A model generated the notes under the pieces. The model ran no database searches. It saw only the letters and a list, made by a program, of their open reading frames with translations, and was not told where the DNA came from. DNA of 64,000 nt, from positions 3,091,389 to 3,155,388 of the forward strand of contig NC_015577.1 in the NCBI RefSeq assembly GCF_000214355.1, given 5' to 3'. The position numbers and the translations under genes are program-made. Positions 10,468 to 58,454 of the stretch are shown here, one piece after another. Source of the stretch: Leadbettera azotonutricia ZAS-9. GTDB lineage: Bacteria; Spirochaetota; Spirochaetia; Treponematales; Breznakiellaceae. Numbering within the stretch: position 1 is the stretch's first letter; every line of letters starts with the position of its first letter.

Positions 10468-10509
10468 TTCCCGGAACTTAGCGTAATAAAATACGCTAAG
10501 TTCCGGGAA
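10468..10509. repeat. 18-bp perfect inverted repeat upstream of the ATPase promoter
   Basis: Arms TTCCCGGAACTTAGCGTA (10468-10485) and its exact complement (10492-10509) flank a 6-nt AT centre. The motif TAGCG/CGCTA is repeated in a second, smaller inverted repeat at 10447-10466. It lies between the putP stop (10522) and the ATPase promoter. There is no U tract after the stem on the minus strand, so it is not a classical terminator for putP. It may still end transcription or bind a regulator. Confidence 0.7.
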
Positions 10510-28849: not shown

Positions 28850-29968
28850 TTATTTGGGTGCTTTCACTGCTAACACATAATGCGTACTTCTTCCTGCACC
28901 TTCCTGCACAAGAATACCTTTGCCTGCCAAATCCTTTAATAAACGACCGGCAGTATCCTGGGAACACTTGACAATTTTTTCAAACTTTGACGATGTAAGG
29001 TGTCCGTCAAAACCATCAAACAGCATATTGATTATTTTTCGCTGACGTTCATCCCTTACCAGCAGGGCATTTTCGCGCCAGAATACCGCCTTCCGTGCTA
29101 TACGGTCTATCACCAGCCCTGCGCTTTCTATCGAGTGGGCAAGACAGATCAAAAACCAGTTAAGCCAGCCGGTAATGTCAGACGTTCCTTTTTGGCTATG
29201 TTCCAAAATATCATAGTACCCTTTTTTTTCTTTTTGAATCTGCGATGACATGCTGTAAAAACGAAGCGAGGTATCATCAGCGCGGGCAAGCAGCATATCG
29301 GTCACCGCGCGTGCAATACGACCGTTCCCATCATCAAACGGATGGATAGTCACAAACCACAGATGGCTTATTGCTGCTTTGATAAGCGGATGCGTATTCG
29401 TGCTATGATTCACCCAGTCTAAAAACCCGCTCATCATGCCGGGCACCTGTGGCGCGTCAGGAGCACGATAATGAACCACCGTATCCCGCGCTTTTTGCGA
29501 CACTACCTGCATTGGCCCGTCCGCGTCATCCCGGTACCGCGCTACCGCAATTTTAAAATAGCCGCTATGGCCGGTGGGAAACAGCGCCGCATGCCAGCCG
29601 AACAGCCGTTCTTCCGTCAGATCAGAAGCAAAATTATGCATTACGTCAAGCATCATTTGCACTACACCGTCAATGTGATGCGAAGGATGCACACCGTTTT
29701 CAAAATTAATACCCAGATGGCGTGCAATGGATGAACGAACCTGTTCAGCATTCAAGATTTCGCCTTCAATCTCGCTGGAACGGATAATCTCCTCCGTTAA
29801 TTGATGAAACTCCGTATCCTGCCGGACATCAAAGCCAAACTGTTCCATCCTGCCCAATAATTTCCCCTGCAAGGCAACCGCACGGGTAAGCGGCTCAAGT
29901 ATCGCCCCATTATCCCAGGTAAAATGTGTCCAATTGGGGTATTCATACAGATACGTTGGCTCCACCAT
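28850..29968 (-). CDS. Fic-domain protein (AMPylase type) with N-terminal inhibitory helix and C-terminal winged helix
   Basis: A 372-residue protein with the intact Fic motif HPFDDGNGRIAR (209-220), which supports transfer of AMP from ATP to a hydroxyl of a target protein. The inhibitory motif (S/T)xxxE(G/N) is Ser64-Glu68-Gly69 on the N-terminal side, so it is a class II, self-inhibited Fic protein. The C-terminal ~70 residues form a winged-helix DNA-binding domain (SSKFEKIVKCSQDTAGRLLKDLAGKGIL). I use the ATG at 29968, with AGGAG 6 nt upstream; an ATG at 29983 is possible. It sits between the Wzz-like and Wza-like genes with its own promoter and operator, and so looks inserted into the polysaccharide operon. 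Confidence 0.9.
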   Translation of the reverse strand: MVEPTYLYEYPNWTHFTWDNGAILEPLTRAVALQGKLLGRMEQFGFDVRQDTEFHQLTEEIIRSSEIEGEILNAEQVRSSIARHLGINFENGVHPSHHIDGVVQMMLDVMHNFASDLTEERLFGWHAALFPTGHSGYFKIAVARYRDDADGPMQVVSQKARDTVVHYRAPDAPQVPGMMSGFLDWVNHSTNTHPLIKAAISHLWFVTIHPFDDGNGRIARAVTDMLLARADDTSLRFYSMSSQIQKEKKGYYDILEHSQKGTSDITGWLNWFLICLAHSIESAGLVIDRIARKAVFWRENALLVRDERQRKIINMLFDGFDGHLTSSKFEKIVKCSQDTAGRLLKDLAGKGILVQEGAGRSTHYVLAVKAPK

Positions 29969-30011
29969 CCCGGTCTCCTGCATCAGGTTATGCTTTGCGG
30001 AGATTCCCTTG

Positions 30012-30065
30012 TATAATCTCCGCAAATTATGCGGAGATTATAACGTGCTTGATCCATACCGTCAA
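30012..30065 (-). promoter_or_regulatory. Fic promoter with 13-bp inverted-repeat operator
   Basis: On the minus strand TTGACG (30065-30060), 17 nt, TATAAT (30042-30037). A perfect inverted repeat, arms TATAATCTCCGCA (30012-30024) and its complement (30030-30042), starts at the -10 and covers the expected start site. A third half-site (TGCGGAGATT-like) lies at 29994-30003. The C-terminal winged helix of Fic is a likely binder. Confidence 0.75.
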
Positions 30066-54751: not shown

Positions 54752-55432
54752 TTATTCCCCGCCGCTCATCATCTCATATACAACCCGATCTATATCAGCG
54801 CAAAATGTCTGCCAGGAAGGTTTGCTAATCCAATTAACTTGCTCAAATTCGCTTTCGGGCATGCCTTTAAGAATATCACAAATAACCGGTATTTCAAGAC
54901 CGCCTACTTTTTCCCTGGCTTCGCGAATTATTTCAATCCAATTGACTGATTCATGCAGTGCAATTTCACGTATATCTGCTATATCTTTAGCGGCGAAACG
55001 GAAAAGGGCACCCAACTTATTGGATAGCATATTACGAACGGAATCGATCCTGTCAAAAAGATCCATCTCAATTATATTCCCAAAGTGAGGGACTGTATCA
55101 TTAACAAAATCAAGTTTTAATTCAGCATCCGATTTTTTCCATCGTACCTTAAGGGTAGCAAATGCTTTGTCTTTTAAAAAACCTGTCTCAGTATCCCAGA
55201 AGAAACCATTCTCAGCGAGTCTGCCAAGAATAAGCTTATATTGCTCATCATATTCATCATCATTATTTACAAAAAAATCAAGATCATCCGAATATCGATG
55301 CTTATAGTAGGCTCTGCTGAGAGCCGTACCACCCGTAAGGAAAAATCGTGTTCCGCAGTTCCTTACAGTGTTCAGCACTCCATCCTGTAACGGATACAGG
55401 TTCTCTTCGTAATACTGCGATTGCGAAATCAT
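54752..55432 (-). CDS. AbiEii/AbiGii-like nucleotidyltransferase (toxin family)
   Basis: A 226-residue MNT-fold protein. FFLTGGTALSRAYYKHRYSDDLDFFVN contains the GG-x-DxD-like nucleotidyltransferase site, with Asp-Asp-Leu-Asp. AbiEii-type toxins transfer nucleotides, for example onto tRNA or GTP-dependent targets. The upstream gene overlaps it by 131 nt in another frame and may be its antitoxin or partner. The start ATG at 55432 fits family alignments (YYEENLYPLQDGVL is a conserved lead-in). Confidence 0.82.
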   Translation of the reverse strand: MISQSQYYEENLYPLQDGVLNTVRNCGTRFFLTGGTALSRAYYKHRYSDDLDFFVNNDDEYDEQYKLILGRLAENGFFWDTETGFLKDKAFATLKVRWKKSDAELKLDFVNDTVPHFGNIIEMDLFDRIDSVRNMLSNKLGALFRFAAKDIADIREIALHESVNWIEIIREAREKVGGLEIPVICDILKGMPESEFEQVNWISKPSWQTFCADIDRVVYEMMSGGE

Positions 55433-55694
55433 AACGCCACCTTATGCTTTGAGGCCAAATGCGCTTGGCCAAATCCGGGGTATACAGTTTCTTTATCCTG
55501 TCTACCCCCCATAATGCAACAATAATATGCCAGCTGGTTCTTTGAAGGCAGCGAAGAAACAGGAAATCCTGATCAAAGGGGCCAACTTTTTCTTTTTCCC
55601 CTGCAACCACCGCAAGCATATCCTCCGGGGAAACCTGATAATCCCAATTGAGAGAACGCATCAGCTTTATTTTTTCTTCATGGGTTAACTGCAC
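55302..55694 (-). CDS. Putative partner of the nucleotidyltransferase (unknown family)
   Basis: A 130-residue soluble protein that I do not recognise by name. It starts MQLTHEEKIKLMRSLNWDY and contains a Trp-rich middle (TSWHIIVALWGVDRIKKL). Its last 43 codons overlap the start of the nucleotidyltransferase in a different frame, and both frames read like real protein there. Its promoter region is shared with the divergent ATPase and contains two palindromes. An antitoxin or regulator role is inferred from position only. Confidence 0.65.
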   Translation of the reverse strand: MQLTHEEKIKLMRSLNWDYQVSPEDMLAVVAGEKEKVGPFDQDFLFLRCLQRTSWHIIVALWGVDRIKKLYTPDLAKRIWPQSIRWRYDFAIAVLRREPVSVTGWSAEHCKELRNTIFPYGWYGSQQSLL

Positions 55695-55712
55695 AGTTTA
55701 CAGAAGTCTTTT

Positions 55713-55750
55713 TATGTGTAATTACTCGACATATCGAGTAATTACACATA
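55713..55750. repeat. 17-bp perfect inverted repeat between divergent genes
   Basis: Arms TATGTGTAATTACTCGA (55713-55729) and its complement (55734-55750) flank CATA. The inner ACTCGA..TCGAGT recurs in the palindrome at 55764-55779. It lies 18 nt upstream of the leftward gene and before the -35 of the rightward ATPase, so one regulator could control both. Confidence 0.8.
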
Positions 55751-55756
55751 AGCAGC

Positions 55757-55784
55757 TTGACAAACTCGATATATCGAGTATAAT
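55757..55784 (+). promoter_or_regulatory. ATPase promoter with palindromic spacer
   Basis: TTGACA (55757-55762), 16 nt, TATAAT (55779-55784), 6 nt, then the ATG at 55791. The spacer is filled by the perfect palindrome ACTCGATATATCGAGT (55764-55779), which reaches into the -10. Both hexamers are consensus, so this promoter should be strong unless repressed. Confidence 0.85.
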
Positions 55785-55790
55785 TGTTTT

Positions 55791-57026
55791 ATGGACAATA
55801 CTTTTTGCATTAGCCGGGATGATTTCATCAAAAAAATTCGGCCTTTCATCGGAAAAAACATCGTCAAAATACTCTCCGGGATACGCAGATGCGGCAAATC
55901 CGTGATGCTCAGGCTTATTCAGCAGGAATTACTGGTCAATGGAGTCGAAAACGCCAATATCCTGGCCATGAACTTTGACACCTTCGAAGACAACACAAGC
56001 CAATCCCCGGAGGCCCTGTACGCAATCATTAAGCAAAAAGCTCAGGCGGCAAAAGGGAAGGTGTATGTCTTCCTGGATGAAATACAGGTGCTCCCGGGCT
56101 GGGAAAAACTGGTCAATTCCTGTTTTACCGAATTGAACGCCGATATATATGTGTCTGGCTCCAATTCGCAGATGCTCTCGCCTGAATACGCGACATACCT
56201 CGGCGGCAGATATGTCATGTTCACTGTTTATCCCTTTAGTTTTAAAGAAGCCGTCTCCGCATTCAAGCTCTATGGAAAAAACCTTGCCCCAAAGGAAGCT
56301 TTTGCCCATTACCTTGTTTATGGCGGTATGCCCTTTATCTATCAGTTGAATTTCGATGATTTTTCCATCAGGCAGTATCTGCGCGACATTGCAGATTCAA
56401 TACTGTTAAAGGACATCACAGCCCGCTACAACATCCGCGATGTTGAACTGCTAAAACGCATTATCCTTTTTTTGTTTTCCAATATTGGCAATATGTTTTC
56501 CACCGTTTCTATTCAAAATTATCTGAAGCGCGATAAAAGGAACCTATCCTGGGAAACAATCCACAACTACATTGATCACTGCAAAACTGCCTGTCTCCTG
56601 CTCCCTGTTAAGCAGGAAAGCATATCGGGGAAACAGCTGTTAAAAGCAGCCGAAAAGATATACATAACCGACCATGGCCTGCGGGAAGCGATTTACGGAA
56701 ACAACCGGAACGATATTAGCCAGGTACTGGAAAATATCGTTTATCTTGAGCTTTTGCGAAACGATTACAACGTTACCGTAGGAAAAGCCGGCCTTAACGA
56801 AATTGATTTTATCGCCCGCAAAAACAACGAAACGGTCTACATTCAGGTTGCGTACCTGCTGGCCTCTCCGGAAACAATTGAACGGGAATTTTCCGTCTAT
56901 GCCAGGGTCACGGACAATTTCCCAAAATATGTGCTTTCCCTGGACGAATTCGATATGAGCCGAAACGGCATTAAGCATATCAACATCGTAGATTTTTTAA
57001 CTTCTGGGCAGGGGGTGTATATCTGA
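55791..57026 (+). CDS. AAA ATPase with C-terminal DUF4143 domain (second copy)
   Basis: A 411-residue relative of the protein at 9094-10404. Walker A is GIRRCGKS near residues 30-37, Walker B VYVFLDEIQVLPGWE, and YVSGSNSQML the sensor. The C-terminal DUF4143 part ends with EIDFIARKNNETVYIQVAY, a PD-(D/E)xK-like strand set with Glu, Asp and Gln. Function is unknown. No Shine-Dalgarno exists; the consensus promoter places the transcript start at or next to the ATG. It diverges from the nucleotidyltransferase pair and converges on AbiE genes. Confidence 0.9.
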   Translation: MDNTFCISRDDFIKKIRPFIGKNIVKILSGIRRCGKSVMLRLIQQELLVNGVENANILAMNFDTFEDNTSQSPEALYAIIKQKAQAAKGKVYVFLDEIQVLPGWEKLVNSCFTELNADIYVSGSNSQMLSPEYATYLGGRYVMFTVYPFSFKEAVSAFKLYGKNLAPKEAFAHYLVYGGMPFIYQLNFDDFSIRQYLRDIADSILLKDITARYNIRDVELLKRIILFLFSNIGNMFSTVSIQNYLKRDKRNLSWETIHNYIDHCKTACLLLPVKQESISGKQLLKAAEKIYITDHGLREAIYGNNRNDISQVLENIVYLELLRNDYNVTVGKAGLNEIDFIARKNNETVYIQVAYLLASPETIEREFSVYARVTDNFPKYVLSLDEFDMSRNGIKHINIVDFLTSGQGVYI

Positions 57027-57027
57027 C

Positions 57028-57873
57028 CTACCGCCCTTCCAATGCCAATTCCCGCAATAACGACAAAAGGTGTTCCCACCAGAACGCGCCGGTTAATTCT
57101 TTGGTAAACGCCTGAGGGGCAAGAAAACGGCGCATCTCGGTTAAAAAGGCTTGCTGCCCGTCTTTTATTTCTTCCAAACGCTGGTTATATTTCAACAAAA
57201 ATACCGGAACCGATATTTTTCGGTCGGCAAGTTTTTTTTCGAGCAAATCCCCGGACAGCAAAATATTCCGGCTGGATAGCCAGAAAATATCCCATAAATC
57301 ACGGTTCTTTATCCTGTTCAGTCTTAAGGCAAGGGCGATTATTTTATCTGCCAATATTTCAGGGAGGCTTTCGGCATACAAAATCATGCCTGAAGTTCCC
57401 GAATCAATCTGATAGTGATTCCTGAGCATTGCCGGTTTGGGCTCATGACTGGGAAGCATGCATATATCAATATTGATTCTTTGGGCCGGAAAGTCAGGAC
57501 GTTCGGGCCGGGTAATTATTTTGATTTTCCAGGTATCGGTATTTCCGGTCTCCTTTTCCGGCTCAGAAACCGAGACCGGTAAATCATATTTTTTTTGCAA
57601 TGCTTCTTTTATAAGAAGCCCAAGCCCTGTCAAGTCCTGCTTTTTAAATCCAAAGCCACCTGAAAAATCCAGGTCTTCGCTTAAGCGTTCCGATCCATAA
57701 CAGCTCCGCAGGCAGGTGCCGCCCATAAAGGTTAATCCCTTAAGGTATCCGGCCTTGTTCATCTCCCGCAGTATATCGTGGTGAAGAATCTCCTTTTCTA
57801 CTACCGGACGCAGGGCAATATAGGAAGCGTCAGCTTCCAGAGCTGCCTCTATGGTTTTTTCAAACAGGTTCAT
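57028..57873 (-). CDS. AbiEii-type nucleotidyltransferase toxin
   Basis: A 281-residue AbiEii/COG2253-like protein. Its nucleotidyltransferase site is LTFMGGTCLRSCYGSERLSEDLDFSGG (Gly-Gly-Thr with Asp-Leu-Asp). INIDICMLPS gives the third acidic residue and ILADKIIALALR, NRDLWDIFWL the rest of the family pattern. AbiEii toxins of type IV systems bind GTP and act by nucleotide transfer, causing growth arrest or phage abortion. The ATG overlaps the AbiEi stop (ATGA), the normal order antitoxin then toxin. Confidence 0.9.
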   Translation of the reverse strand: MNLFEKTIEAALEADASYIALRPVVEKEILHHDILREMNKAGYLKGLTFMGGTCLRSCYGSERLSEDLDFSGGFGFKKQDLTGLGLLIKEALQKKYDLPVSVSEPEKETGNTDTWKIKIITRPERPDFPAQRINIDICMLPSHEPKPAMLRNHYQIDSGTSGMILYAESLPEILADKIIALALRLNRIKNRDLWDIFWLSSRNILLSGDLLEKKLADRKISVPVFLLKYNQRLEEIKDGQQAFLTEMRRFLAPQAFTKELTGAFWWEHLLSLLRELALEGR

Positions 57874-58412
57874 TCAGAAACAGCTCCCCAATCGACGAGG
57901 TCCAGGGATCGCTTCGCCGCCCTCATATCTTCCAGGGCCAGATCTGCCGACGCCCGCCACAACCGGTACCGGGGGTCATAAAAAAGACGGGAACTTACAC
58001 CGTCAAATGACTTTTTCGTATGAATAAACTCTATAGATCCCTGCTTTCCACAGTGAATAATACCGGATCGGCCGCCGGTCATCAGGGTAATCCAGCCCAA
58101 GGGTATTTGCGAAATTATCCCCGCTTCGCTCAGGACGCTTTCCAGGCTCAAATAGCAGAAGGTATCTTCCCGCAGCCGGGAAGCGGCATGGTATAGTTCA
58201 AAGCCCCTGGGATGCCCTGCCTTGGGGTAAACATACATTCCCCGGCAAATCCGCTGGAGAAGCTCTGCCTTTACCGCCCTCCCCAATAGTACCCGGAGAG
58301 CTTCCTCGCTCATGCCCGGAAACAAGGGATAAAAATCGCTCACCGAAAAAAGATAATGCTCCCCGTCCGCCAGGGTTTCCAGGGTTTTCCTTAATTTTTG
58401 TATAGCCTGCAT
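57870..58412 (-). CDS. AbiEi-type antitoxin/repressor
   Basis: A 180-residue protein: an N-terminal winged helix (FSVSDFYPLFPGMSEEALRVLLGRAVKAELLQRI, then GMYVYP) and a C-terminal AbiEi antitoxin domain. Known AbiEi proteins bind inverted repeats in their own promoter and repress it. I use the ATG at 58412; a TTG 12 nt earlier is possible. There is no Shine-Dalgarno and only ~12 nt lie between the -10 and the ATG. Confidence 0.87.
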   Translation of the reverse strand: MQAIQKLRKTLETLADGEHYLFSVSDFYPLFPGMSEEALRVLLGRAVKAELLQRICRGMYVYPKAGHPRGFELYHAASRLREDTFCYLSLESVLSEAGIISQIPLGWITLMTGGRSGIIHCGKQGSIEFIHTKKSFDGVSSRLFYDPRYRLWRASADLALEDMRAAKRSLDLVDWGAVSE

Positions 58413-58420
58413 ACTGGTAT

Positions 58421-58454
58421 ACAAAACATATCAAATACTGTTATGTTTTGTCAA
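58421..58454 (-). promoter_or_regulatory. abiE promoter with 10-bp inverted-repeat operator
   Basis: Minus strand: TTGACA (58454-58449), 18 nt, TATGTT (58430-58425). Arms ACAAAACATA (58421-58430) and its complement (58442-58451) form a perfect repeat with an 11-nt centre, covering both promoter hexamers. This fits autoregulation by AbiEi. Confidence 0.8.

Follow-up and report, generated by a model that had tools for sequence, protein, structure and literature searches.

Which protein reads the palindromes that lie between a divergent gene pair and an ATPase gene in Leadbettera azotonutricia ZAS-9? The window, meaning the whole stretch of 64,000 nucleotides that was analysed, comes from a genome assembled as a single contig of 3.86 Mb. 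An earlier note on this DNA had proposed one regulator for both units, with the 130-residue partner of a nucleotidyltransferase as the obvious binder and the ATPase as a further candidate. What was established here by computation is that the operators come as a pair at a set distance, that they go with the ATPase, and that their sequence covaries with a helix of that protein. From the sequence comparisons, the ATPase is probably a sequence-specific DNA-binding autoregulator, which would bind its own operator pair and repress its own promoter. The locus contains the following features.

54752-55432, minus strand: nucleotidyltransferase gene (226 aa, AbiEii-like)
55302-55694, minus strand: gene of the 130-aa protein, partner of the nucleotidyltransferase
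55712-55751: distal operator O1, the inverted repeat TTATGTGTAATTACTCGACATATCGAGTAATTACACATAA (40 nt, 18-bp perfect arms, 4-nt centre)
55757-55762, plus strand: -35 hexamer TTGACA
55764-55779: proximal operator O2, ACTCGATATATCGAGT (dyad at 55771.5), within the -35/-10 spacer
55779-55784, plus strand: -10 hexamer TATAAT, its first T common to O2
55791-57026, plus strand: ATPase gene (411 aa, AAA_14 and DUF4143, PADLOC PDC-S01)

The ATPase promoter, TTGACA-16-TATAAT, has 12 of 12 consensus matches and a spacer of 16. Given these hexamer positions, O2 covers the spacer except for one base and also takes the first T of the -10 hexamer, which bears out the earlier description of a palindrome filling the spacer between consensus hexamers. 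The inverted repeat described there is also real, but it measures 40 nt with 18-bp arms and not 38 nt with 17-bp arms. O1 has the core ACTCGA(CATA)TCGAGT with its dyad at 55731.5; the same core is present in O2, and the two dyads are 40.0 bp apart. O1 flanks and O2 fills the promoter of the AAA_14-DUF4143 ATPase. With up to three mismatches the 16-mer ACTCGATATATCGAGT was found three times in the 64 kb (dinucleotide shuffles: mean 0.20, never 3). In the whole 3.86-Mb genome its two best matches, with 0 and 1 mismatch, are the O1 and O2 sites, and up to two mismatches added just one further match, which is isolated. A role of the operator as a regulon site was rejected, near-matches elsewhere in the genome being about as frequent as those of a reversed control pattern.

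The operator was then followed into related loci. At an ATPase of 80% identity (L239, Spirochaetia bacterium MS495-2) the promoter carries TTGACATTCTCGATATATCGAGTATAAT and, 39 bp upstream of it, a second copy, and at one of 66% identity (L054) the operator is also kept; the ACTCGA core looked for near homologous genes is present at both. The genes of the 130-aa protein and of the nucleotidyltransferase are both absent from these two loci. No neighbour recurs beside the ATPase, and the upstream gene is co-directional with it in 48 of 75 cases; a conserved neighbour was therefore discarded as a candidate binder. The operator site belongs to the ATPase and not to the adjoining genes. An AbiEi-like frame was seen upstream of the 80%-identical ATPase.

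The upstream regions of 77 same-order ATPase homologues were compared with 323 intergenic controls, genes that lie at the same loci. Palindromes and direct repeats were enriched above these controls and above dinucleotide shuffles (p about 1e-17 or less). The best repeat distance was 39-41 bp in 54/77 homologues against 22/323 control genes, and in 39 of the 42 same-order homologues with a repeat score of at least 9. Operator sequences vary by lineage and include TTTCGATATATCGAAA, TTATCAGTTATAACTGATAA, TTTACTCGGTTATAACCGAGTAAA, a TGCA type and more. Relatives from other phyla usually have a clear distal palindrome and often a degenerate proximal copy in the spacer; in 32 of 77 the best repeat is at 39-41 bp. 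Overall, a palindrome pair above the 95% control cut-off was present in 65% of 223 homologues, and about a third had no clear pair; relatives were collected by a genome-contig search with a single protein as query. The two-copy palindrome layout is a family trait of the ATPase, not a local one. Other DUF4143 subfamilies, including paralogues in the source genome, also carry upstream palindromes and inverted repeats, differently arranged (35 loci; p 9e-6 for palindromes, 2e-7 for inverted repeats). Distant relatives (L209-L224) have direct repeats on both sides of the promoter, as in L210, L218 and L224, and no single spacer copy, which is another operator layout.

The ATPase was assigned using Pfam (AAA_14, 113 bits; DUF4143, 54.8 bits; both above cut-off) and PADLOC, where it matches PDLC04787 (PDC-S01) over its full length (E=1.8e-148, residues 6-405). 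The source genome holds 13 DUF4143 matches. Walker A and B are intact, with G35, K36, D96 and E97 invariant across 76 homologues. The AlphaFold model (pLDDT 91.5) consists of the AAA domain, helices 238-247 and 254-266, two strands and a C-terminal domain, from which these features were placed on the gene.

56502-56666, plus strand: predicted winged helix, residues 238-292 (AlphaFold model, secondary structure; assigned by inspection)
56550-56588, plus strand: predicted recognition helix, residues 254-266, in which residue 255 predicts operator sequence
56697-57023, plus strand: PD-(D/E)XK-like C-terminal domain, residues 303-411, usual lysine absent

The putative winged helix comprises helices 238-247 and 254-266 and strands 270-277 and 282-292 at pLDDT 85-95, its fold being read by inspection. 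Foldseek matches of the C-terminal domain were the nucleases Bax1, McrC, Hjc and Can2, all weak (E about 1e-3). In that domain E314, E337, D339 and Q352 are invariant, and the lysine position 354 is A, C, S or T in the 76 aligned homologues. A sequence search of solved structures gave no match. The best Foldseek match of the full model was the archaeal Walker-type ATPase PAB2304 (PDB 2QEN; TMq 0.51), which is 15% identical and for which no operator is reported in the literature found. Cdc6/Orc1 initiators on origin DNA (PDB 2QBY) were matched as well; these too are AAA+ ATPases on specific DNA, but they act at replication origins and not at their own promoter, and the similarity is weak (TMq about 0.3).

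Covariation between operator and protein was scanned before the AlphaFold model was collected. With whole-protein identity removed, operator similarity peaked at residues 241-270 and best at 250-261, a segment that takes in the turn and the N-terminal end of the predicted recognition helix (254-266). The scan of all 181 again put this segment on top, above every one of 300 permutations, which ignore phylogeny; the held-out set alone gave no significant covariation window. Rules for residue 255 were fixed before the first new loci were looked at. Later a second batch, retrieved with D255 proteins as queries, was tested under the same rules, and it contributes nearly all of the supporting D cases. 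Among unseen relatives, D255 went with TCGA in 8/10 against 1/60 others (p=4e-8) and K255 with TCC in 5/8 against 1/62 others (p=3e-5), both by Fisher tests from which shared descent is not fully removed. A broad E255 rule failed there (3/22) and was dropped. When the discovery set is included in the counts, TCGA in strict register accompanies D255 in 17/25 against 1/156 sequences, TCC accompanies K255 in 9/18 against 2/163, and TGCA accompanies H255 in 7/12 against 1/169, with no H255 among the new operators. In a phylogeny from which the winged helix was left out, D255 changes 12 times, and TCGA stands in strict register in 7 of the 12 clades that are purely D. These counts suggest that residue 255 sets the operator half-site, as a partial code. 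Similar covariation could arise from a partner that is bound to the ATPase and evolves along with it.

The earlier suggestion that the ATPase might be a binder is favoured by the retention of the operator at the 80%- and 66%-identical relatives and by its covariation with the putative recognition helix. We infer physical binding, dimerisation, cooperativity and the sign of operator action (repression) from these patterns. The winged helix between the ATPase and nuclease-like domains would read the palindromic half-site, here TATCGAGT. Protomers on O2, between -35 and -10, would block RNA polymerase, and a second dimer on O1, 40 bp or about four turns upstream, could bind cooperatively on the same helix face. 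Occupancy of O2 together with cooperative binding at O1 would thus hold expression of the ATPase low and self-limiting. An operator between -35 and -10 suggests autorepression as its natural reading. TetR- and MarR-type autorepressors, and antitoxins such as AbiEi, have an operator that overlaps their own -35/-10 spacer and a helix-turn-helix that reads the palindrome. The operator of the ATPase likewise overlaps its own promoter, with O2 in the TTGACA-TATAAT spacer and the same layout in relatives. The ATPase would differ from these palindromic-operator autorepressors in that the reader is an AAA+ ATPase with a nuclease-like domain; its operators differ in coming as a pair of sites, spaced at a fixed 40 bp, with sequences private to a lineage. 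Family-wide, each ATPase would have its own operator, changing together with its recognition helix, so that co-resident paralogues need not cross-regulate.

It is very improbable that the operator is instead shared, with the 130-residue protein binding it and, as a toxin-antitoxin regulator, controlling the two divergent units. The start codon of the 130-aa gene has O1 18-57 bp upstream, and AbiE-type antitoxins are commonly autoregulators. The 226-aa protein does match PF08843 (AbiEii; 40.5 bits against a cut-off of 22.5), but the 130-aa protein has no AbiEi match and no Pfam, NCBIfam or PADLOC family match, so that no DNA-binding domain is recognised in it. About 20 other loci carry a homologue of the 130-aa protein, mostly beside a nucleotidyltransferase homologue, and at these loci neither an ATPase within 1.5 kb nor such an operator upstream was found; conversely, the same operator stands at the 80%- and 66%-identical ATPases that lack the pair. 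A search for a sigma-70-like promoter of the minus-strand pair gave none, and with neighbours not conserved the proposed link of the ATPase to a toxin-antitoxin unit is not supported. What survives of the single regulator for both units is one operator system, formed by the two palindromes, at the ATPase promoter. Through O1, incidental co-repression of the 130-aa gene may occur at the source locus only.

A reading in which the ATPase binds the palindromes as its working target (a nuclease landing or cleavage site, a partition-like site or the mark of a mobile unit) and not for gene control is unlikely, although less so. It would suit a C-terminal domain like PD-(D/E)XK nucleases, the varying gene neighbourhoods of the ATPase, and the precedent of AAA+ plus winged-helix proteins (Cdc6/Orc1) that bind specific sites without being repressors. 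It sits poorly with one copy placed exactly between the -35 and -10 boxes, with a pair whose position is tied, in different phyla, to the promoter of the ATPase itself, and with the absence of the usual catalytic lysine in 76/76 aligned homologues. It is hardly credible that the repeats are RNA hairpins, terminators or chance AT-rich palindromes read by no protein. O1 could fold as a long hairpin with weak Rfam hairpin matches, and O2 was flagged as terminator-like; against this, O1 lies upstream of the plus-strand promoter and bears no U-run on either strand, the families matched in Rfam are microRNAs that score far below gathering, the pattern is not recovered in controls or shuffles, and there is covariation of the sequence with a protein helix. 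A recognised RNA element was dismissed, as Rfam returned spurious hairpin matches only.

Autoregulation by the ATPase would bear on a very common defence candidate. PDC-S01 (Pfam AAA_14 and DUF4143; COG1373) is described as one gene in which an ATPase is joined to a PD-(D/E)XK-type domain, an arrangement that the protein here would share, with 9,986 archaeal and 29,494 bacterial systems; it is reported to rank fourth in frequency among prokaryotic defence entries, and, like most PDCs, which are without experimental validation, it has not had its antiviral activity validated (PMC12988326). In a rumen set it was the most frequent individual locus (PMC13356809). The ATPase is accordingly a predicted, very common candidate anti-phage protein. 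The PDC-S01 literature found gives no mechanism and describes no self-operator, DNA-binding helix or autoregulation, which are predicted here, and nothing on regulation was found in the literature on DUF4143, COG1373, PF13635 or PAB2304. A self-operator would give each member a defined candidate DNA ligand, and the partly readable helix code points to the reading domain and makes autoregulation testable. Self-operators would also help to locate true start sites and subfamilies, and would offer natural repressor-operator pairs that may be orthogonal. More tentatively, PDC-S01/DUF4143 ATPases might be a very large family in which every gene is a self-addressed unit: each ATPase would read, through a recognition-helix code, an operator pair that is private to it and lies at its promoter, and many could coexist per genome without cross-talk; in a defence response, release from the operator could then act as the sensing step.

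Further observations were made in the window. The 130-aa and nucleotidyltransferase genes share 131 nt, read in different frames, and by tblastn the same long overlap is present in many relatives (e.g. L136, L139), which makes them a conserved overlapping gene pair. A separate AbiE-type pair follows the ATPase at 57028-58424 on the minus strand (AbiEii, 281 aa; AbiEi, 184 aa, NCBIfam TAA_AbiEi). The 64 kb contain three inverted repeats with perfect arms of at least 13 bp and a loop of at most 6, O1 among them. The second of these three longest repeats (10468-10509, 18-bp arms) is unrelated in sequence to O1 and lies just upstream of a second DUF4143 ATPase (L009, 9094-10404, minus strand). The third, TATAATCTCCGCAAATTATGCGGAGATTATA at 30012-30042, overlaps the -10 of a TTGACG...TATAAT promoter belonging to a Fic-like protein (28850-30025, minus strand) whose C-terminus looks winged-helix-like; this gene is possibly another self-regulated single-gene unit.
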